NCBI RefSeq assembly: GCF_003015185.1
Contig: NZ_CP027860.1
Location: 5,549,001 to 5,613,000, forward strand
DNA from: Ahniella affigens
Lineage (GTDB): Bacteria; Pseudomonadota; Gammaproteobacteria; Xanthomonadales; Ahniellaceae
Direction: 5' to 3'
Length of the DNA stretch: 64,000 bases
Shown here: in pieces, positions 1,483-15,475 of the stretch
Numbering within the stretch: position 1 is the first letter of the stretch
Layout: each line of letters opens with the position of its first letter
Made by a program: the position numbers and the translations under genes
Notes under the pieces: model-generated
What the model saw: the letters and a program-made list of their open reading frames with translations, nothing else
Database searches by the model: none
What the model was told of the DNA's origin: nothing

Positions 1483-2988
1483 ATGACGCGGCCCGGGCAG
1501 ATTTGGCCGCCAGAACATCGACCCGAGTTGGGCTGCTACGCAGTGGCGTTCTCGTTTGCCGGGGAGGATGTTGAGGTAGTCAGGCCTCTGGCCGAAGCCC
1601 TTGAGCAAGCGTTGCTGCCCGGAGAGGTGTTCTTCGATGAATTTGAAGAGCACAAGCTGTTTAATAACAGTTTGCGAAATGACCTTTCCGACCTGTACTT
1701 GAATCGCGCTGTCCTTGTGGTCCGTTGCCTGAGCCAGGCTTACAGCAAAAAGCCGTGGTGCCAAGCTGAATCCGTTGTCATCGCGGTGCGCGAAAAGCTC
1801 TCCCCTCACTCAGTGTTGGACATCTACGTAACAGACGCACAGAACCAGAACCTAGCAGGCCAGGCAGAATTTCTAATTGCGGCGCATCTGCATCCCCAAC
1901 TGACTCTGGAGACGATCATGGTGCGTCTGCGCGATTTGTGCAGGCTCCCGCCACGCAATCCGAAAGAGACCCGTTCTTCTGTCTCGGTCTTCGTCATGCA
2001 GGAACTCAGTCGCAAACTGTCAACCGTTGCGATCAGTCGCGCCGATTTGGTCGCTGCAGTTGACTGTTGGCCGGCGCCAGAATCGGCTGTTCATTCGAAC
2101 ATCGACTGGTGGTTGAGCGAACGGAGGGCGTACCCAGGCGATGACAAACTCGTCAACCTGTTGCACGGGTTATGGCCAAAAATCCATTCGCTTCATCACG
2201 AAATACAAGACTGGTTCCTAACCTATCTGAAACGACCATTTCCAGCTCCGCCTAGAAACCAAGCCAAAGCCATTGTCCAATGGCACCGAGAGCGTGTCGC
2301 GGCGCCCAAGGAATCGCCGAAGGAAAGGCACGCCTTCTTTATTTGGCGGAATCAGGGACATCAAGCCTCTGTGACTTTTGAAACATCACCCTCCGAAGCT
2401 TCGGTTGACTTCAAGGTCCGATTTCCAGATGTGGTGGACCAGGTCGGTACTCTTGATCAGATCGAGCGAGTCGAACTGGCAATCGAAATTGACCAGTTTG
2501 CTAGCGATATGCCCTACTGGAGCATCCAATTTGGACTTTTTGAGAGTCCGCTCAGTTTGGCGGTCCCAACGAATCTGCGTAGTTTGCAGCGTGCCCGTTT
2601 CAAGCAGGGGTGTGCGCCACTCCCGGCGGCTCCACTCTGCAAGCATGAAGTTGCGTGCGTCTCGGAATTCTGGGTCAACGACTGGCCAGCTGACCATTGC
2701 CTGGTCGTCCGGTCCCTGCAAGGCGCTAATGCAGTCTTTTTCAACAAATTAATCATGTCCGCCAGGCCCGTCGCAATGTGGTCAGAGAAGGCTGACCTAG
2801 TAGTGTCCGATGAGCAATGGAAAAAGCTCTCCAACTCAAGGACGTTGCCAACCGAGGCCATGAACTTTGCGGAAGACCAACGTAGGAAACATGCTGCATT
2901 TGAACTCCGACTGTTCTACGAGGACCACGAAGTCCCGTTGCATCAGCCGGGCGAGCTAAACAATCGAGGTCTGGATCCCCCGCTATGA
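1483..2988 (+). CDS. TIR-domain protein with VMAP-like C-terminus (putative conflict-system effector)
   Basis: A 501-residue protein. Residues about 17-130 look like a TIR domain: the strand YAVAFSFAGED, an acidic FFDEFEE segment, the helix/loop LNRAVLVVRCLSQAY, and PWCQAES, in which Glu96 sits where TIR NADases carry their catalytic glutamate. Residues about 160-275 are helical and Trp-rich. Residues about 285-490 are beta-rich and end with RPVAMW, LRLFYEDHEVPL and a final LDPPL, a pattern that resembles the C-terminal domain of vWA-MoxR-associated proteins (VMAP). The stop overlaps the next ATG (ATGA), so it is translationally coupled to a MoxR ATPase. Inference: on activation the TIR domain destroys NAD+ or makes a signal nucleotide. 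The VMAP assignment is by pattern memory, not by search. Confidence 0.75.
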   Translation: MTRPGQIWPPEHRPELGCYAVAFSFAGEDVEVVRPLAEALEQALLPGEVFFDEFEEHKLFNNSLRNDLSDLYLNRAVLVVRCLSQAYSKKPWCQAESVVIAVREKLSPHSVLDIYVTDAQNQNLAGQAEFLIAAHLHPQLTLETIMVRLRDLCRLPPRNPKETRSSVSVFVMQELSRKLSTVAISRADLVAAVDCWPAPESAVHSNIDWWLSERRAYPGDDKLVNLLHGLWPKIHSLHHEIQDWFLTYLKRPFPAPPRNQAKAIVQWHRERVAAPKESPKERHAFFIWRNQGHQASVTFETSPSEASVDFKVRFPDVVDQVGTLDQIERVELAIEIDQFASDMPYWSIQFGLFESPLSLAVPTNLRSLQRARFKQGCAPLPAAPLCKHEVACVSEFWVNDWPADHCLVVRSLQGANAVFFNKLIMSARPVAMWSEKADLVVSDEQWKKLSNSRTLPTEAMNFAEDQRRKHAAFELRLFYEDHEVPLHQPGELNNRGLDPPL

Positions 2989-3941
2989 AACTGTCTGAGC
3001 CTACCTTGCAGCTGAACAACCCCATCTTCAAGGGCGACCATCAAGCCCAGCAGCGGGTGGCATTTCCAGCACCACCACCTTGGCGCAGTTTCGCCAAGTC
3101 CGACTCAAGCCAGGGGCTCGAACCCTGGCAGATCCGTGCGAGTCAGCATCAGGCAGACGCGCAACAGATTCAGGCGGTCAATTTGGCACTGCATCTGCAT
3201 CGGCCCATTTTAATTACCGGGCTCGCGGGTACCGGTAAGACGTCTCTCGCCTACGCTGTGGCATATGAGTTAGGTCTCGATCAGCCGCTCATCTGGCCGA
3301 TCAACTCGCGCAGCACCCTCCAGCAAGGGCAGTATCGCTTCGATGCGGTCGCTAGGCTCCACGACGAGAGCAAGGATCTCGTGAAGTACATCAAGCTTGG
3401 CCCACTTGGTGCAGCGCTGGCGAAGTCCACGAGCAGCAAACCTGCCGTGCTCTTGATCGATGAGATCGACAAAGGAGACATTGACCTTGCCAACGATCTA
3501 CTGCATGCGATGGAAGAAGGTCGCTTTGAAATCGAGGAGCTGAGGCGCAGTGGCCCCGGCCCATATGAGCTTGACCTTCCCGGTGGCGGCAAACGTACGG
3601 TCACTGATGGCGTAGTGCAATGCGAGTACTTCCCAATTGTTCTCATGACCAGCAACGGCGAACGCGACTTCTCTCAGGCGTTTCTACGTCGGTGCGTCCG
3701 GTTGGATATTCAGCCGCCAAGTTCTGCGCAATTGCGGTCAATTCTCAAGGCTCGGCTAAATATCGAGGATGAGGACCAATATCAACAGCTGATCAACGAT
3801 TTCGTCGACATGCGCGCCAAGAATCAGCAACTGGCAACGGATCAGCTCTTGAACGCCGCGCAGTTGATTCAGAGAGGCGTCGTTGCGGCCGACTTCGACT
3901 TGTTGCAGCAGCTCGGTGTCTTAAAGAATCTGAGCGACTGA
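2985..3941 (+). CDS. MoxR-family AAA+ ATPase
   Basis: A 318-residue AAA+ ATPase. Walker A is GLAGTGKTS near residue 79, Walker B is VLLIDEIDK near residue 160 with the glutamate present, sensor 1 is MTSNGERDFS near residue 225, and an arginine-finger-like FLRRC follows. A short helical extension closes the protein. MoxR ATPases remodel partner proteins and typically pair with vWA proteins, which matches the downstream gene. Its ATG overlaps the upstream TGA and only two bases separate its stop from the next start, so the three genes are almost certainly one transcript. In ternary vWA-MoxR-VMAP systems this ATPase is thought to act as the NTP-dependent switch between sensor and effector; that role here is inferred. 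Confidence 0.88.
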   Translation: MKLSEPTLQLNNPIFKGDHQAQQRVAFPAPPPWRSFAKSDSSQGLEPWQIRASQHQADAQQIQAVNLALHLHRPILITGLAGTGKTSLAYAVAYELGLDQPLIWPINSRSTLQQGQYRFDAVARLHDESKDLVKYIKLGPLGAALAKSTSSKPAVLLIDEIDKGDIDLANDLLHAMEEGRFEIEELRRSGPGPYELDLPGGGKRTVTDGVVQCEYFPIVLMTSNGERDFSQAFLRRCVRLDIQPPSSAQLRSILKARLNIEDEDQYQQLINDFVDMRAKNQQLATDQLLNAAQLIQRGVVAADFDLLQQLGVLKNLSD

Positions 3942-3943
3942 GC

Positions 3944-6900
3944 GTGGATATCCGCGATGCCATTCGGAGCCTGCTGCAGAGTGAAGATGGATACGCTCTG
4001 GCTGACGTTCTTTGGCTCGTCCAGCAGGAAGCGGTGTGCGTTTGTCATTCGCCCAAATATTCGGGACCAAACGAAGAGCCCCCACCACGCGAGAACAATC
4101 CGGACACCAACCCAGGGCACACTGCGAATAACCTTCAGGCTCCGGAAGCGAAAGGCAGGGAGACCGATCTGACGCAAACCGAAAAGGCGCATCAAGCAGC
4201 GGAGAAGCCGTTAACGTTGAAGGCAGCTGGTGCAGATACCGCGTGGAAAATCCGAACGCCTGGTACCCGAGCCTTGCCCGAATCAAAGCGGCTCGCGCGC
4301 AGTCTGCGCGATCTCAGGCGAATTGTGCCAAGCCGACAGGGACAGGAACTCGACGAAGCCGCCAGTATCGAGGCAAGTGCGATGTCACGTCGTCCGCAAC
4401 TCGTGTTCGCGCCCAAACGCGAACGCCATTGGAGTCTCGTGCTTGCGATCGACGAGAGCGCTGGCATGTGGATTTGGCGCGACGCGTTGACCGAGTTTCA
4501 AAAGGTGTGCGAGCGGTCCGGTGCGTTTCGCGATGTTCGAGTCCGTCGATTCGATCCGGCAAAGCTCGTCCATCGCGGTCCAAAGCAGAGCGATGGCGCT
4601 GGACTTCATACATTGCGTGACGCTGAAGGTCGTCAATTAGTGTGGTTTGTCACGAGTGCTGTGGCGCCAGCATGGCGAGGCAATAGTCTGTTGCGCACGC
4701 TGGGTGATCTATCTCGTCAGCTCCCATTGGCGCTGCTGCAAACCTTACCTGAACGACTTTGGAGACGGACAGGCATTGTCAAACGGCAGGATGCGATTCC
4801 GATCTACGTCGGTAGCAAGGCGGCCGCGCAAACCAGCTCCCAATACATTCAAGAGGCGAAGCAGCCGTTTGAGCAGGGTGCCCTGAACAAGCGTACTCAC
4901 TGGACCCTGCCGCTGTTGGGTCTGTCAGAGGACTGGTGGTCCGCCTACGGCCGCATGATCAACGATGCCGCTCCCCCTAATGTCCCCGGGCTTGCGCTGC
5001 CAACTGACATTGCAGCTGATGTTGAACAACCTTCGGAGCCTGTTCAAGTTGGTTCCGATCCGACTGCCCTATCCGAGCAAGAGTTGCGGGAGAGGCTAGA
5101 GCAGTTCAAGCGCGATGCCAGCCCCAGAGCCCGAGAATTGCTATACCTCTTGTGCTATGTGCCGCTACAGCTGGCGATCATCCGCCTGGTTCAGCGCGTC
5201 ACCCAGGGGGAACAAAGCGGAAACGGCGAGTTGTCGGAGTTGTTCTTTTCCGGGCTCATCCGGCGCATCTCGCCGCCAAGCGAACTTGACCCGAATCGTG
5301 TCAGCTTCAACTTTCACCCGCCGCTGCGACAGTGGTTGCAGTCTGAGGTGCCGCTCGGCAAGGCCATACAGATCAAGCATTTGCTGAGCGAGTTCCTGAA
5401 GGATCGATATGGTTCCGGCTACGATTTCATGGCTGAAGTCAGTACTGGCGACCTCACTGAGGACCTGAGTTTTGCCGAAGTTCGTGGGCTGCTGGCAAGG
5501 CGCCTGATGCCCGAGCCCAGGGCCGATGAGCAAGCGGTTCAGGGTTCGTCTAACCCGCAGATCGAGCAGCAACAACTTAGCGGTCGGCGGATTCTCTGGA
5601 TAGATGATGGTCATCCGTCTAACACGTTGGAGATTGACGTGTTGATGGCCGAAGGAGCGGCTGTTGACCCCGTCACTTCGATTGAATTGGCGAGTAAATG
5701 CCTCGCGAACTCATCATACGATGCGTTGGTCGCAGATTTCCTGTTAGATGGTAACAAGGCTGGTGAGCTCACATTTTTGGATTACGTCGATGAACGCTTG
5801 CCGAGCATAGTTCGGATCGTCTATCCCAGAGTGCATCAGCGAGATATCGCGCTTGCGGCGATGCAGATGCGAGTCGAACTCCCGTCGAAGAGAAGGGAGA
5901 CCCTGCTTGGATGCTTAGTTCGCACCCTTGCCCCGGATGCCGTTCGCGATGGAGTCTGGCCAGACGTCGGTGGTGAATGGCGTGACTACATCGGCATCGA
6001 TAGGAAGAGCTTTGAATCAATTTGGACGTCCTTCGAGCAGGTCCAGAGAAGTGACCCGTCGCTGAATGCTGCGAACCCAGTTAGCCTCCTTCAAGAATGT
6101 CTTCAAGCTTTCTGTCTCTGTGGCGACGAGATTGTTGTGACACCTAGACGCGGAATGCCGGCGGCGAAGGTCCATACTAAACCGTCGATGCAGTCTGAGG
6201 CGCACTATGTCTTCATGTCCAACCAGCAGATGCAGATTCTTTCGAGCAGACAGAAGCACTGGATCCAAGAGGCGTTGCTGTTCTTGGATCGCTATCGGAA
6301 AGACGGCGCTAGTCTGCGGCGCTGGTACGAAGAATCCCAGTTCCTGAAAAAGCCGCCTTGGGAGCAGATCGATCTACTCTCTCGCGTCGCGATCTTCTGT
6401 GTGGACATCGCTGGATGGCAAACTGTGCCTTTGACGGCGCGGTCTTGCCTAGCACTCGCGCGTCTGGTTGGTTTCCAGTTGACGTTGCCGGCGTCTGAGG
6501 AGGGGCTGTTCTGGGAACGAATTTCCGTGCTTACCAAGCCGTCTGAAAATGAGCGCGCGCGAATATCGAAGCACCTTCGTGCGGGTGGCTGGGAGAGTCG
6601 AAGCCCGCCAATCGTTCGTATCGCTCTGTCCATGCTCATCGAACGTACGGAAGGACAGTTCCGCGAGCTCGGCAGCGGATTCGACTCGTTGGATGGGATG
6701 CTTCCCATGCCACAAAGGGCTCGGGTTCTATCCTCACTGGAGGTCAGGGACTGGGTGCCCCCGCAGTCAAGTGTTCCGCTTGGCTGGTTGCCGCGGCCAG
6801 CAGAGCAGCATGCCGAAGTGGCAGAGATTATTGCCGAGTCCATGGGTTACCATCTTGTGGACTTCATCGGATTTCATCCCGACTGGAACAGCCGCGTTCC

Positions 6901-8068
6901 AGTTTTGGTCGTTGGGAAACAAGTCATCTGTGAGAACTCAAGAGATACCGCAACAGTCATGAGTGCATTGAGCTCTTTGGACGTCAAAGTCGAAGAAGTG
7001 AAGGACTATGCAGAAGACTGGGCGTATCCCTTGTCTGTACTGGCGCACCTGCATGAGCGTCCGCCCCCAGTGTTCTGCGAGTTGCGCAGCTTCAGCGAGT
7101 CTGAAAACTGGGCATGGATCAAGGACCTAATGGATCAGCGGATCTTTGGTGTGAGTGGCCGAATTCGAAGCGACGAACACCGGTTCAACTCCCTTGTGGT
7201 GCAATTTTATCGTCCGAGTTCTGAATCGTCGATTGATCCGGACGCGCAGATGATCGTCTGCAAGGCCAGAACGCCAGCAGAGTTTGCTCGCGAGTTCTTC
7301 GAACGCACGGAGTCTGCGTGGCTGCTTTATCGCGAAAAGGCAAGCGAGGCTGAGCTCAAAGAACTCGCAGAGGACATTCGATTCCTTTGCGAAACAGGTC
7401 ATGGCCGCAACGTTGAAAGTCAAAGTTTGCACAGATATTTGCCTCCCAGGCCTAGACGAAACGGAAGGTTGCTATCGGCAAATGCCAAGGAGGCACCGTT
7501 ACTGAAGGGAGCGAAGCAGGTCGAGCTAGTTGTTGTCGGCGCGCCCGATTGGCCCATCGAAAGTCGTATCCTGTTCGACATAGATGTCGCGTGTGTTGTC
7601 GGACTGCAGACCGAGAAGCTTGAGGCCGTTCAAGCCCCCCGGCACAACCTCTATATTCAGACCGCAATTGCAAAACGTCCGTTCAAAGTAGGCGCGATCT
7701 GTGATGGCGGCGCGACGATTCTGGGACTCGATCTGGCCTCCTTACCCGATGTGGAGTGGCCTCCGGCAGAAGGGGCTCAAGCTGGTTTGGAGCTGCGAGG
7801 GCAGGATTTCGATGCCTACCTTGACGAGACAGGCTATTTGGCACTGAAACCCACTTCCAGGGTCCGCGAAGACCTAGAGAAATCCACAGCCGATGTGCGT
7901 AATGTACTGGTCGCAGAAGCTCAGCAGCTGCTCACCGTGCTGCTTGATGCATCGATTGAAGGCGACCTGATGGACGAGGGCTGGAGAGCGCGAGTTTCTC
8001 AAAGCAGCCTGGCTGACATTTCCAAGGTGTTCGGGCAGACTTTTGGAATGGGCGTCGACCCGTCTTAG
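3944..8068 (+). CDS. Giant vWA (SAV_2336-N-like) protein with receiver-like domain
   Basis: A 1374-residue protein starting at GTG, two bases after the MoxR stop. Residues 1-130 are polar and probably disordered. Residues about 160-310 match the vWA-like N-terminal domain of SAV_2336 proteins: a hydrophobic strand into DESAGMW, then SGAFRDVRVRRFD, then LVWFVTSAVAPAW. The MIDAS motif reads D-x-S-x-G rather than D-x-S-x-S. Residues about 545-665 look like a receiver domain (RRILWIDDG, then LVADFLLDG with a phosphoacceptor-like Asp). The 700 residues after that, including a beta-rich stretch near 1220-1300 (VELVVVGAPDWP), I do not recognise. Together with the two upstream genes this completes a vWA-MoxR-TIR/VMAP triad. 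The protein is probably the sensor or scaffold of the system. Confidence 0.75.
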   Translation: MDIRDAIRSLLQSEDGYALADVLWLVQQEAVCVCHSPKYSGPNEEPPPRENNPDTNPGHTANNLQAPEAKGRETDLTQTEKAHQAAEKPLTLKAAGADTAWKIRTPGTRALPESKRLARSLRDLRRIVPSRQGQELDEAASIEASAMSRRPQLVFAPKRERHWSLVLAIDESAGMWIWRDALTEFQKVCERSGAFRDVRVRRFDPAKLVHRGPKQSDGAGLHTLRDAEGRQLVWFVTSAVAPAWRGNSLLRTLGDLSRQLPLALLQTLPERLWRRTGIVKRQDAIPIYVGSKAAAQTSSQYIQEAKQPFEQGALNKRTHWTLPLLGLSEDWWSAYGRMINDAAPPNVPGLALPTDIAADVEQPSEPVQVGSDPTALSEQELRERLEQFKRDASPRARELLYLLCYVPLQLAIIRLVQRVTQGEQSGNGELSELFFSGLIRRISPPSELDPNRVSFNFHPPLRQWLQSEVPLGKAIQIKHLLSEFLKDRYGSGYDFMAEVSTGDLTEDLSFAEVRGLLARRLMPEPRADEQAVQGSSNPQIEQQQLSGRRILWIDDGHPSNTLEIDVLMAEGAAVDPVTSIELASKCLANSSYDALVADFLLDGNKAGELTFLDYVDERLPSIVRIVYPRVHQRDIALAAMQMRVELPSKRRETLLGCLVRTLAPDAVRDGVWPDVGGEWRDYIGIDRKSFESIWTSFEQVQRSDPSLNAANPVSLLQECLQAFCLCGDEIVVTPRRGMPAAKVHTKPSMQSEAHYVFMSNQQMQILSSRQKHWIQEALLFLDRYRKDGASLRRWYEESQFLKKPPWEQIDLLSRVAIFCVDIAGWQTVPLTARSCLALARLVGFQLTLPASEEGLFWERISVLTKPSENERARISKHLRAGGWESRSPPIVRIALSMLIERTEGQFRELGSGFDSLDGMLPMPQRARVLSSLEVRDWVPPQSSVPLGWLPRPAEQHAEVAEIIAESMGYHLVDFIGFHPDWNSRVPVLVVGKQVICENSRDTATVMSALSSLDVKVEEVKDYAEDWAYPLSVLAHLHERPPPVFCELRSFSESENWAWIKDLMDQRIFGVSGRIRSDEHRFNSLVVQFYRPSSESSIDPDAQMIVCKARTPAEFAREFFERTESAWLLYREKASEAELKELAEDIRFLCETGHGRNVESQSLHRYLPPRPRRNGRLLSANAKEAPLLKGAKQVELVVVGAPDWPIESRILFDIDVACVVGLQTEKLEAVQAPRHNLYIQTAIAKRPFKVGAICDGGATILGLDLASLPDVEWPPAEGAQAGLELRGQDFDAYLDETGYLALKPTSRVREDLEKSTADVRNVLVAEAQQLLTVLLDASIEGDLMDEGWRARVSQSSLADISKVFGQTFGMGVDPS

Positions 8069-8117: not shown

Positions 8118-9356
8118 TCAACCGAACCGGCGGAGATCGAAGGCATCACAAGGTATATGAGGATGCGAGCCGTCGATCAATCGACCCATCACCTCCGCCG
8201 TCATCGGCGCCAAAGTCAGCCCAATATGTTGATGCCCAATCGCGTAATAGATCGGCTGGCCGGGCACTTGGCCGAGGCCGGGTAAGTAGTCGGGCAGAAT
8301 CGGGCGGGGGCCGCGCCAGCGGCGGCTTGGGTCGGACTTGGGATACCCGACTTGGGCGAGTAGTTCGTCCAGCCGCGTGAACTTCCGCGGGTCCACTTTT
8401 GAATGGAGACCGCTGAATTCCATGAAGCTGGAGGCGCGGAGGCGGCCGGCCATCGGGGTGACGAGCAAGCGCTGGTCGCTATAGAGGATCGGGGCGTCGA
8501 TCTGGGCCGGTTCGTTCGGGAGTTCGACGTGATAGCCGTAGGCGGGTTGCAACGGCACCTTCAAGCCAAATGCTTCGAGCAATGGCTTGCTCCAGACGCC
8601 AGCCGCGACGACGGCCGCTTCGGTGTTGATCTGACCGGCGCTGTGTGTGATCACCAGTCCGGCGCCGCGGCGTTCGATCTTCGTCGCGGCGACGGGCTCG
8701 AATACGGCGCCGTGCGCTTTGGCGGCATCGGCACAGGCTTTGCCGACTTCGGCGGGATCGAGGACATGACCGCAGGTCGGGAAGTGCAGGCCGGCGATGG
8801 CATCGACACCGGCGCGCTGCGCTTGCACGTTGAGCCACGAGGCATCAGCGGGCGCGGTCGGGATATCGAGCGTCGCCATATGTGCGGCTTCCGCGGCGGC
8901 AGCTTGCTCAGCCTTCGCGCCGTACCAAATCTGATAGTGGCCGTTCTGACGCAGGAGGTCAGTGCGGCCAAACGCTTCGAGCATCTGCTGGAAGTCGGTT
9001 GTGGCGGTGCGAACCAGGGGCGCGAGCGCGCGGGTGTTCTCGGCGCGCCGAAACGCTGCCATCGCGAAGCGTAGCGACCACGGCAACAAGCCAAACCAAT
9101 GTCGCATGGGCATGTGCAGCGGCCCACCGAATTGCACGAGTTCCTTCCAGAACGTCAGCAACAGCTTCGGGGAGGGCAGGGGTTCGACCAACTCGGCTGC
9201 AATGTGGCCGACATTGCCATAGCTCGCGCCGCCAAAGCCGGGTGGTTCGGGGTCGAGCACGCGCACGCTGTGACCTTGCGTGGCCAGCCGCCAAGCGATG
9301 GCGGAGCCAATCACGCCGGCGCCAATAACGGTGATCTCGCGCTTTTCGATGCTCAT
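8118..9356 (-). CDS. FAD-dependent D-hydroxyproline dehydrogenase (DadA-like)
   Basis: A 412-residue FAD oxidoreductase of the DadA/D-amino-acid dehydrogenase family. It has an N-terminal dinucleotide-binding motif VIGAGVIGSAIAWRLA at about residue 10, and near the end WRGPRPILPDYLPGLG and the flavin-contacting GHQHIGLTLAP. Lying next to a hydroxyproline epimerase, a DapA-like deaminase and an aldehyde dehydrogenase, it should oxidise cis-4-hydroxy-D-proline to 1-pyrroline-4-hydroxy-2-carboxylate, the second step of bacterial hydroxyproline breakdown (LhpB/HypO role), passing electrons to the respiratory chain. I start it at ATG 9356 because the Rossmann motif follows within ten residues; the longer frame adds 23 unconserved residues. 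It is divergent from the rest of the cluster. A generic D-amino-acid dehydrogenase is the alternative. Confidence 0.85.
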   Translation of the reverse strand: MSIEKREITVIGAGVIGSAIAWRLATQGHSVRVLDPEPPGFGGASYGNVGHIAAELVEPLPSPKLLLTFWKELVQFGGPLHMPMRHWFGLLPWSLRFAMAAFRRAENTRALAPLVRTATTDFQQMLEAFGRTDLLRQNGHYQIWYGAKAEQAAAAEAAHMATLDIPTAPADASWLNVQAQRAGVDAIAGLHFPTCGHVLDPAEVGKACADAAKAHGAVFEPVAATKIERRGAGLVITHSAGQINTEAAVVAAGVWSKPLLEAFGLKVPLQPAYGYHVELPNEPAQIDAPILYSDQRLLVTPMAGRLRASSFMEFSGLHSKVDPRKFTRLDELLAQVGYPKSDPSRRWRGPRPILPDYLPGLGQVPGQPIYYAIGHQHIGLTLAPMTAEVMGRLIDGSHPHIPCDAFDLRRFG

Positions 9357-9445
9357 GTCTGGTGCGGGTCCGCTTGCTCGGGTCAGGGAATACCGTATAC
9401 GATCTACGAAACCAGAACAAGCCATCCCCTAACCGGAGTCGTCTG
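9357..9445. promoter_or_regulatory. Divergent control region with GTATAC-type GntR operator
   Basis: This 89-base region separates the divergent dehydrogenase and deaminase genes. It contains the 8-base palindrome CGTATACG at 9394-9401, in the context TACCGTATACGATC. GTATAC-centred palindromes are typical operators of FCD-type GntR regulators, and a GntR/FCD gene sits at the end of this same cluster (12701-13357). The central position suits control of both directions. Regulation by that protein is inferred. Confidence 0.5.
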
Positions 9446-10360
9446 ATGACTAACCAGATTTCTGTTGCCAAGCCTGACTGGCGTGGCGTTTTCCCAGCCG
9501 CCACCACGCAGTTCGGCGAGAACATGCGCGTTGATATCGGTGCCACGCGCGCGGTGCAGCAGGCCCTGGTGCGCGATGGGGTGCATGGCTTGATCCTGCT
9601 CGGCACGGTGGGCGAAAACTGCTCGCTCAGCGCCGATGAAAAGCGCGCTGTGTTGACCGCAGCGGTCGGCGAAGTGGGCGGCAAGGTGCCGTTGATTGCC
9701 GGTGTCGCCGAATTCACAACCGATGCGGCCATTGCGTATGCGCGTGATGCTGAGGCGATTGGCGTCAGTGGCCTGATGCTGTTGCCGGCCATGGTTTATG
9801 TGCCGACGCCAGAAGAACTGGAGAAGCATTTCCGCGCGGTCGCGAAGGCCACACGTCTGCCGATCATGCTGTACAACAATCCTCCGGCGTATCGCGTCAA
9901 CATCGACATCGCGACGCTGCAGGCTTTGTCTGATTGCGAGAACATTGTCGCGTTGAAAGAGTCGGCGCCCGACAGCCGTCGCTTCACTGACGTCTACAAC
10001 GCACTGGGCGATCGCTACACCCTATTCGCGGGCCTCGACGATGTGGCCTTCGAAGGTCTGGTGCTTGGCGCGGCGGGCTGGGTGTCAGGTCTGACGAACG
10101 CATTTCCAGTCGAGTCGTTGAAACTCTATCAGGCGATCGTCGATGGCGATCTGGAACTCGCCCGCAAGATCTACCGCTGGTTCATGCCGCTGCTGCATCT
10201 CGATGCGCATCATGATCTGGTCCAGAGCATCAAGCTCGCGGAAGCAGTCATGGGTCGCGGCTCCGAGCGGGTACGACCGCCGCGCTACCCGCTGACTGGC
10301 GCGCGGCGCGCCGAAGTCATCGCGCTGATTGAGCAAGCCCGCGACAACCGGCCGTTCTGA
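9446..10360 (+). CDS. DapA-family 1-pyrroline-4-hydroxy-2-carboxylate deaminase
   Basis: A 304-residue member of the dihydrodipicolinate synthase/N-acetylneuraminate lyase family, an (alpha/beta)8 barrel using a Schiff-base lysine. The lysine lies in [10 protein letters not shown] near residue 170, the catalytic tyrosine in [10 protein letters not shown] near residue 143, and the substrate-carboxylate loop GTVGENCSL near residue 53. In the hydroxyproline pathway this family deaminates and dehydrates 1-pyrroline-4-hydroxy-2-carboxylate to 2-oxoglutarate semialdehyde. The genes on either side fit this better than lysine biosynthesis. I start at ATG 9446, preceded by an AACCGGAG-like binding site; the longer frame would run into the divergent promoter. 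Two bases separate its stop from the epimerase start. Confidence 0.87.
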
Positions 10361-10362
10361 TC

Positions 10363-11304
10363 ATGAGCGCGACCCGCATTCAGATTGTGGATTCTCATAC
10401 CGGCGGCGAACCGACGCGGCTCGTCATCGCCGGCGGACCGGACCTCGGCAGTGGCACCATTGCCGAGCGTGCCAAGCGCTTCGCCGCCGAGTTCGATCAC
10501 TACCGTTCGGCGATCGTCAATGAGCCGCGTGGTTCCGATGTGTTGGTCGGCGCCTTGCTGCTCGAAGCGAGTGCGCCGGAGGCCGCCTACGGCGTCATCT
10601 TCTTCAACAACGTCGGGCTGCTCGGCATGTGCGGTCACGGCATGATTGGCGTCATCGCGACGCTCGCGCATCTCGGCCGAATCAGTCCCGGAGTGCAACA
10701 CATCGAGACGCCCGTGGGTGTTGTGCGGGCTGAATTGCTACCCGACGGCGCCGTGCGTATCGGCAATGTGCCAAGTCATCGCAAGGCGAAGCAGGTGGCG
10801 ATTGATGTGCCCGGCATCGGCACGGTTCGCGGCGATGTCGCCTGGGGCGGCAACTGGTTTTTTCTCGTCGATGCGAGTGAGCACCGGCAGGCGCTGGTAC
10901 TTCGCGATGTCGAGGCCTTGGTCGACTACAGCTGGAAGATTCGCCAAGCCGTGAATGCACAAGGTTATCCGGATGTCGATCATGTCGAGCTGTTTGCCAA
11001 CACCGACACCGCCGACTCGCGCAACTTCGTACTGTGCCCCGGCAAAGCGTATGACCGCTCGCCGTGTGGCACCGGCACGAGCGCGAAACTCGCGTGCCTG
11101 GCGCTTGATGGCAAGCTTGAACCAGGCGCGACTTGGATTCAGGAAAGCATCCTCGGGACCCAATTCGAAGCGCGCTTTCATTGGGCCGACTCGGCCCAAT
11201 CCGCCGTGTTGCCCAGCATTCAGGGACGCGCATCGGTGAACGCCGAAGCAACCTTGATCTTGGACCCGACTGATCCCTTCTGCTTTGGAATTCGCCCGCA
11301 ATGA
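10363..11304 (+). CDS. 4-hydroxyproline 2-epimerase (proline racemase family)
   Basis: A 313-residue proline racemase family enzyme that converts trans-4-hydroxy-L-proline to cis-4-hydroxy-D-proline, the first step of the pathway. Both catalytic cysteines are visible: one in GMCGHGMIG near residue 89 and one in [14 protein letters not shown] near residue 233. Having two cysteines argues for an epimerase or racemase rather than the trans-3-hydroxyproline dehydratase subfamily, where one is replaced. The opening [14 protein letters not shown] is typical of 4-hydroxyproline epimerases. The ATG lies two bases after the deaminase stop and the TGA overlaps the aldehyde dehydrogenase ATG, so the genes are co-transcribed. 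Confidence 0.93.
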
Positions 11305-12704
11305 GTGCGCCGCTCCCTCATCACAGCCCGGCCGACGTGGCCACCCTGGCCGAAGCCGCAGCGCAAGCGTTTCCCGTGCTGGCACAAAGTAGTCCGGCAA
11401 AGCGCGCGCAATTGCTGCGTGCGATCGCCGATCAGATTGAAGCATTGGGCGACACGCTGATCGACTGCGTCTGCGCCGAATCCGCATTGCCGCGTGCCCG
11501 CGTGCAAGGTGAGCGCGGGCGAACGACCGCGCAGCTCCGCATGTTCGCGACGCTCGCCGAAGCCGATCTGTGGCGCGAGCCGAGAACCGATGATGCAGAC
11601 CCGAATCGGCAACCCGCGCCGCGGCCACGCATTCACTCCGAGCGCCGACCGATTGGTCCGGTCGCGGTGTTCGGTGCCAGCAACTTTCCGCTCGCGTTCT
11701 CGGTTGCCGGCGGCGACAGTGCGAGTGCGCTGGCCATTGGCTGTCCGGTCGTGGCCAAAGCGCATCCGGCGCATCCGGAAACCTGCCGATTAATCTCGGG
11801 CGCGATCGACCGCGCGGTTGCCGCGTGCGCGCTGCCGCCAGCGGTTTTCCAGGTATTTTTCGAAAGCGGATTCGACGCCGGTCAGGCGCTGGTGCAACAT
11901 CCGGCGATCAAAGCCGCAGCGTTCACCGGCTCGCGCCGAGGTGGCATGGCGTTGTGGCGACTCGCCCAGAATCGCCGTGATCCGATCCCGTTCTTCGCGG
12001 AGATGAGCAGCGTCAATCCGGTCTTCATCACGCCGGCTTGTGCGAAAGCTGATCCTGAGGGGCTCGCGACAGGACTCGTGGGTTCGATGACACTGGGTGT
12101 AGGTCAATTCTGCACGCAGCCCGGGCTCTTGTTTGTCACGCGCGATAGCGCGCCCGCGCTCGTCAGTGCGTTGATTCAACGCGTGCAGCAAGTCCCGCCA
12201 GGAACGATGCTGACGGCAGCGATGGCCGCGCACTATCGCGACTTGGTCGAAGCGCGACGCGCTGAAGCGAACGTGCAAGTGCTCGCGGAAGGTGCCGTTG
12301 CAAGCGATCCGCGACAGGCTCAGGCCATGCTATTCGGATGCGATCTCAGTACGTTCCTGAGCAACGACCGCCTGCAGGATGAAGTTTTTGGGCCGAGCAG
12401 CTTGGTGATAGAGGTCGACACGGTACAGGACTTCGAGACCGCAGTTGCCAATCTGGATGGCCAGCTGACAGCGACGCTCTGGCATCAGCCGGGAGAGCGC
12501 GACGCGTTCACGTCGTTACTGTGGCAGCTCGAACAGAAAGTCGGTCGCATTGTGTTCAACGGTTATCCGACCGGCGTTGAAGTCGGCAGCGCCACGGTTC
12601 ACGGCGGACCGTTTCCGGCGTGTTCGGATGCACGCTTCACATCGGTCGGCACCCGCGCGATCGATCGGTTCCTGCGCGTGGTTGCCTGGCAGGAGCCCGC
12701 ATGA
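11301..12704 (+). CDS. 2,5-dioxovalerate (2-oxoglutarate semialdehyde) dehydrogenase
   Basis: A 467-residue NAD(P)+-dependent aldehyde dehydrogenase that should oxidise 2-oxoglutarate semialdehyde to 2-oxoglutarate, the final step of hydroxyproline catabolism feeding the TCA cycle. Visible motifs are [14 protein letters not shown] (cofactor strand), [10 protein letters not shown], the AFTGSRRGG glycine loop, the general-base Glu in [11 protein letters not shown], and the nucleophile Cys in [10 protein letters not shown]. The TQPG context after the cysteine is typical of the KGSADH-III/hydroxyproline type. Its start overlaps the epimerase stop and its stop overlaps the regulator start. The exact aldehyde is inferred from context. 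Confidence 0.88.
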
Positions 12705-13357
12705 CTGAGCGCACCGGTCTGGCCCGAACGATCAGCTCCCAGCTGATCACCTATATCCGGAATCGCATTCTGGATGGCAGCTACGCAGCCGGCACGGCGT
12801 TGCTGCAGGATGCGATTGCAGCCGAATTCGGCGTCAGCAAAATTCCGGTGCGCGAGGCGCTGGTGCAGCTCAGCGCCGAAGGGTTGGTTGATGTCTTCGC
12901 GCATCGGGGCTTTCAGGTGCGTGGCACATCAGTATCGGAACTGGATGAACTGTTCCGGCTGCGCCTGCAGATCGAGCCGGATGCAGTCGCCAACGGTGCG
13001 CGTCTTGCGACGACAGCCGAACAACGCGAGGTGAAGCAATTGCTTGACGCGCTGAATGCGGCGACGGAGTCGCAAGATCCAAAGGTCGCTGACTTGAATC
13101 GCAGCTTTCATCTTGCGTTGATCTGTCCCGCCCAACAGCCGATCACCGCCGAGGTGCTGGGGCGTCTGCTCGTCCGGTCACAACGTTATGTGTTGCGGCA
13201 TCTGGCGCCGCAAGGTCGGACGCGACGGGCGAAGACTGAGCACAACGTGCTCCATCGCTTGTGGCTCAAGCAAGACGCCGATGGCCTCCAGGAGGCGACG
13301 CGGACGCACATCGTCCGCACGCATGACGACCTCCGGCAATTACTGTCGGCACATTGA
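12701..13357 (+). CDS. GntR family regulator, FCD subfamily (hydroxyproline cluster)
   Basis: A 218-residue regulator. Residues about 8-75 form a GntR winged helix, with the recognition-helix stretch AAEFGVSKIPVREALVQLSAEGLV. Residues about 85-215 form an FCD effector domain (helical, with H and D/E metal or ligand residues in LNRSFHLAL and TEHNVLHRL). The ATG overlaps the stop of the dehydrogenase gene, so the regulator is the last gene of the operon it probably controls. The likely effector is a pathway intermediate and the likely operator is CGTATACG at 9394-9401. Whether it represses or activates cannot be told. Confidence 0.87.
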   Translation: MTERTGLARTISSQLITYIRNRILDGSYAAGTALLQDAIAAEFGVSKIPVREALVQLSAEGLVDVFAHRGFQVRGTSVSELDELFRLRLQIEPDAVANGARLATTAEQREVKQLLDALNAATESQDPKVADLNRSFHLALICPAQQPITAEVLGRLLVRSQRYVLRHLAPQGRTRRAKTEHNVLHRLWLKQDADGLQEATRTHIVRTHDDLRQLLSAH

Positions 13358-15204: not shown

Positions 15205-15370
15205 TCACTGACGCGGCAAACAGTTCAGTCGAACAGATTGCAGGGGCAGACCCCTGTGTCTGCCCCAGGCCTAGGTGTTTGCCTTAGATCTCTGTATTTG
15301 CCCAGCACCAGGCTCCAACGTGGACGCGCGGAACCAAGGCCGGCGTCATGTATTCGCGCGTCTGGAACCA

Positions 15371-15475
15371 GGGCAGACCCAGGGGTCTGCGCGCGAGGCT
15401 GGAAAGGCAGGGCAGACCCAGGGGTCTGCGCGCGAGGCTGGAACGGCAGGGCAGACCCAGGGGTCTGCCCTTACG
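15371..15475 (+). repeat. 39-bp tandem repeat, three units (last one truncated)
   Basis: Units begin at 15371, 15410 and 15449, each opening GGGCAGACCCAGGGGTCTGC and, in the first two, continuing through GCGCGAGGCTGGAA. The core is an imperfect palindrome (GCAGACCC/GGGGTCTGC). Looser copies occur at 15243-15267 and again at 40369-40394, so this is a dispersed family with a local tandem expansion. It lies between convergent genes, where it may act in transcript termination or stability. Confidence 0.75.

Follow-up and report, generated by a model that had tools for sequence, protein, structure and literature searches.

VMAP ternary systems, which are predicted anti-invader machines, consist of a VMAP, a MoxR and a vWA component, and the order VMAP-MoxR-vWA is strictly conserved (Kaur et al. 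2020, eLife, PMC7159879). In these systems the vWA component has preferred lengths of ∼850, 1125, 1300 and 1450 aa, and the hallmarks of the MoxR component are the N-terminal motifs WxhapG and PsWRxa together with intact AAA+ residues (PMC7159879). The effector domains that occur sporadically on the vWA component include receivers but no histidine kinases, and many of the effectors are inactive versions which may act as binders or decoys (PMC7159879). A receiver that lacks any one of the five catalytic residues is termed a pseudo-receiver (PMC12632262). In the literature searched, we found no functional or experimental study of any VMAP system. RavA-ViaA and other MoxR-vWA chaperone pairs, like the locus described here, combine a MoxR AAA+ ATPase with a vWA partner, but the architecture of that partner and its inferred role are different, and we know of no TIR, receiver or variable tail in these pairs.

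A three-gene operon with the order of VMAP ternary systems

The window analysed here is a stretch of 64,000 nt from Ahniella affigens (NZ_CP027860.1), and all coordinates are positions in it. Three unbroken frames on the + strand (1483-2988, 2985-3941 and 3944-8068) overlap or abut and are tightly packed in 6.6 kb, the start codon of the MoxR gene overlapping the stop codon of the TIR-VMAP gene and the vWA gene starting directly 3′ of the MoxR stop codon. The features are as follows:

1483-2988, + strand: TIR-VMAP gene, 501 aa, with N-terminal TIR, middle region and highly divergent VMAP-C-like C-terminus
2470-2931, + strand: VMAP-C-like C-terminus, residues about 330-483 (own VMAP-C profile, hhalign)
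2985-3941, + strand: MoxR-type AAA+ ATPase, 318 aa (AAA families, conserved residues)
3944-8068, + strand: vWA component, 1374 aa, open reading frame with GTG start
3992-5413, + strand: SAV_2336_NTERM region, residues 17-490 (NCBIfam NF041121)
4451-4657, + strand: degenerate MIDAS, D170 kept, G174 for Ser/Thr, S238 for the second Asp
5585-5938, + strand: pseudo-receiver, residues about 548-665 (TorS model, hhalign, HMM, structure model)
5948-8065, + strand: orphan C-terminal tail, residues 669-1374 (∼706 aa), no detectable relatives

The 5′→3′ order is VMAP, MoxR, vWA, as in the described systems, and the same order is also present in annotated homologous loci. This gene order, the TIR and AAA domains, the intact MoxR and a SAV_2336_NTERM match of 274 bits support the assignment of 1483-8068 as, very probably, a divergent VMAP ternary conflict system composed of TIR-VMAP, MoxR and vWA-effector. 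The initial annotation had placed a receiver in a MoxR-vWA switch; the MoxR-vWA setting stands, and the complete VMAP-MoxR-vWA set had been missed. The locus shares with the published systems (PMC7159879) a vWA protein of SAV_2336 type whose C-terminal modules vary, the MoxR P..WR motif, a TIR on the VMAP component and a receiver, and differs from them in a far diverged VMAP-C, the loss of the second MIDAS Asp and a ∼700-aa tail without relatives. Hence the operon type and the receiver fusion are already known, while the MIDAS loss, the longest MoxR branch and the orphan tail are unusual.

The GC3 of the operon is 0.58-0.66, lower than the 0.70-0.74 of four downstream genes, which is compatible with horizontal acquisition from elsewhere, and there is no tRNA gene within the 64,000-nt window. 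As judged by sequence alone, the genes at 8118-13357 resemble a hydroxyproline/D-amino-acid catabolic cluster (FAD oxidoreductase, DHDPS-like, epimerase-like, aldehyde dehydrogenase and GntR-type regulator), and a short tandem array of ∼3 copies with a 39-bp period is located at 15355-15468.

MoxR ATPase and TIR-VMAP protein

Comparison with 65 homologues showed that the MoxR active site is intact, with Walker A (G79/G84/K85), Walker B (D159/E160) and the sensor and Arg-finger residues N224 and R235/R236 all in place, and that the system-specific P..WR motif is present (P31, W33 and R34 in PPWRSF). The first N-terminal motif WxhapG is degenerate, with N12 replacing the Trp and G17 retained. 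MoxR keeps 77 of 93 highly conserved positions, and its end branch of 2.63 is the longest of the 66 rows in the tree, so that its tree placement is uncertain.

The TIR domain covers residues 21-102 of the 501-aa protein and scores just above the cut-off of 28 with PF13676 TIR_2 (28.8 bits), and its W92-C93-x-x-E96 motif, including the catalytic Glu, is retained. With a VMAP-C profile that we built from homologous loci, the C-terminus of this protein scored a weak 9.4 bits, which was nevertheless the top score among 272 window ORFs and was beaten by only 1 of 5000 shuffles, and the match lies in two collinear blocks; hhalign gave 58% and E = 1e-4. The Pfam VMAP-C model (PF20028) did not match the TIR protein, and its search of the organism's own genome also returned no match, with controls equally silent, which makes that genome search uninformative on its own. 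With Pfam's own model silent, a VMAP-C identity is no more than probable for the C-terminus of the TIR protein. The profile score, the shuffle comparison and hhalign speak for the assignment of the operon to the VMAP systems, and the weakness of the match, which Pfam misses, counts against it.

The vWA protein and its degenerate MIDAS

NF041121 matches the vWA protein with 274 bits and E = 2e-81 (cut-off 200), and the matched region comprises an N-terminal helical extension, the vWA domain and a C-terminal extension, beyond which lie the receiver and then the tail. The protein had been regarded as far larger than usual members, a claim that falls because 65 homologues have a median of 1189 aa, with 21 of them reaching or exceeding 1374 aa, and the published preferred lengths reach 1450 aa. 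In an alignment of 68 homologues, the MIDAS position occupied by S238 (codon 4655-4657) is Asp in all 67 non-gap rows and that occupied by G174 (codon 4463-4465) is Ser/Thr in 67 of 68; the window vWA therefore does not have a complete MIDAS (DxSxS, Asp ending strands 1 and 4). Such a site is at variance with the peptide-binding scheme that has been put forward for the vWA family of VMAP systems, and this is a second point against the assignment.

Among 321 genomes sampled from its class, only this genome passed the SAV_2336 cut-off. Close relatives of the whole vWA protein were absent from both genome contigs and viral contigs, and there was no full paralogue in its own genome, where the second SAV_2336 match lies in a 392-aa frame and extends over its vWA core only.

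A receiver domain within the vWA protein

Residues ∼548-665 are confirmed as a receiver-type (CheY-like) domain. The NCBIfam TorS kinase/receiver model matches residues 537-627 (E = 0.001), and when residues 540-676 were compared with 16 receivers, hhalign gave 97% probability and E = 1e-10, while Pfam Response_reg was not reported for this domain. A receiver HMM, built in part from sequences that had been retrieved with the window protein as query, scored 38.5 bits on the domain, compared with 10.3 for the best of 5000 shuffles and about 0 bits on other tiles of the vWA protein; an HMM made from vWA-fused receivers only scored 8.7 bits, with 2 of 5000 shuffles higher. Moreover, the AlphaFold2 model has the receiver strand-helix order (mean pLDDT 71, pTM 0.70), and its matches by Foldseek and VIA-align are receivers (best Z 14.1). 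This model is supportive rather than independent, since a receiver alignment was its input. The module suspected at ∼545-665 is thus borne out, with the two motifs that had first drawn attention present at residues 550-556 (ILWIDDG) and 595-603 (LVADFLLDG), and the structure prediction with Foldseek comparison that had been proposed for it returned a receiver fold, in a model guided by the receiver alignment.

The initial annotation had also held that this architecture may be undescribed. This does not hold, because PMC7159879 listed receivers on the vWA component in 2020 and because, when the C-terminal regions from 64 homologous loci were scanned with Pfam, Response_reg turned up after the vWA module in four of them, three from Streptomyces (L053, L073 and L102) and one from Calothrix (L096). 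In all of these, as in the window protein, the receiver comes immediately after the SAV_2336 N-terminal region, and the window tail is absent from them. In the Streptomyces europaeiscabiei plasmid record of L053 (4704-7064), only the receiver end is annotated, as 'response regulator', and the frame runs without a break from the vWA part into it.

Catalytic residues and the question of phosphorylation

Set against the other receivers, the domain in the window still has its acid pair (D554/D555) and the phosphoacceptor D598, and it lacks the Thr/Ser, where V626-Y627 stand, and the Lys, where L646-P647 replace Lys-Pro. With two of the five catalytic residues missing, the full set expected of a phosphorylatable receiver is not present, and by the definition of PMC12632262 the predicted domain is a pseudo-receiver. 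The proposed comparison of the phosphoacceptor Asp and the Lys across homologues gave a mixed result: the Asp is kept and the Lys absent in the window, the Streptomyces receivers lack both (Ala for the Asp, Arg or Trp for the Lys, with the Ser kept), and the two receivers of the Calothrix protein both have all five residues. Judged from these residues, the loss of catalytic residues from receivers on the vWA protein has taken a different course from lineage to lineage, in agreement with the remark in PMC7159879 on inactive effectors as binders or decoys. The FrzS pseudo-receiver (PMC1974792) is likewise a receiver fold without some of the five catalytic residues, but FrzS lacks the Asp, whereas the window receiver keeps it and lacks Thr/Ser and Lys, and is fused to a MoxR-associated vWA protein.

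An ordinary phosphorylation input is therefore doubtful on present sequence evidence, being weakened both by the two missing residues and by the lack of a histidine kinase in the three-gene operon. Normal phosphorylation chemistry requires the Thr/Ser and Lys that this receiver lacks, so its most likely function, moderately supported, would be protein binding or a decoy role rather than that of an Asp∼P switch. Thus, of the signal input first suggested for this domain, the degenerate role is probable and the phosphorylation is not. An atypical but true phosphorylation input, in which a histidine kinase encoded outside the operon or a small phosphodonor acts on D598 and gates the MoxR-vWA switch, is unlikely. 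The retained acid pair and phosphoacceptor Asp mean that some phosphorylation, for example by a small phosphodonor, would still be possible, and the intact receivers of Calothrix, on the same type of protein, make a phospho-input possible in some members; weighing against it here are the joint absence of Thr/Ser and Lys, an operon without a kinase, and Streptomyces members that lack the Asp itself.

The orphan tail

The long tail that could not be assigned before is still without relatives: its ∼706 aa gave no match in Pfam, PADLOC, PHROGs or PDB sequences, nor in plasmids, phages, viral contigs or 60 SAV_2336 loci, only chance-level matches in 398 genomes, and nothing by hhalign against 16 receivers. 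The single-sequence AlphaFold2 model is uninterpretable (pLDDT 35). We presume the tail to be an effector or target-binding region, and an orphan tail would be expected from the hypervariable effectors of VMAP ternary systems.

Proposed working of the operon and alternatives

We infer a scheme in which the TIR-VMAP protein would be the sensing or signalling partner, able to make an NAD-derived signal, the MoxR ATPase ring would remodel its bound vWA partner, and rearrangement of the complex would deploy the payload, made up of the pseudo-receiver as binding or decoy module and the orphan tail as effector. The anti-invader role of the operon would follow by analogy from the published inference for VMAP systems. 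Taken together, a divergent VMAP ternary system that works in this way and carries a binding or decoy pseudo-receiver is the reading that we consider likely.

The locus might also belong to a distinct, fast-evolving VMAP branch in which the MIDAS metal site is unused, the pseudo-receiver serves partner binding and the tail is a new effector fold, a proposal that we make only tentatively. Alternatively, the locus could be a decaying system, in which the loss of the MIDAS Ser and Asp, an almost unrecognisable VMAP-C, the degenerate receiver and the longest MoxR branch of 66 rows reflect relaxed selection. Decay is improbable, since none of the three frames is broken, the genes sit close together within 6.6 kb, MoxR still has its catalytic residues along with 77 of the 93 positions that are highly conserved, and the TIR has kept its catalytic Glu. 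Finally, the stretch could resemble a receiver by chance and be part of one large novel effector domain (540-1374), as the silence of Pfam, a tail without relatives and a structure model built on a receiver alignment might allow. This is very improbable and is largely refuted by the hhalign probability of 97%, the HMM score of 38.5 bits (shuffles reached no more than 10.3), the correct strand-helix order and motif placement, and the receivers at the same place in homologues.

Under the preferred reading of a divergent VMAP ternary system, the A. affigens operon adds a strongly diverged case to these predicted machines, and it makes clear that a VMAP-system vWA protein can lose its MIDAS metal site. 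The vWA-fused receivers recur in three lineages, and their phosphorylation residues have been lost differently in two of them. The compact three-gene operon is well suited to testing.
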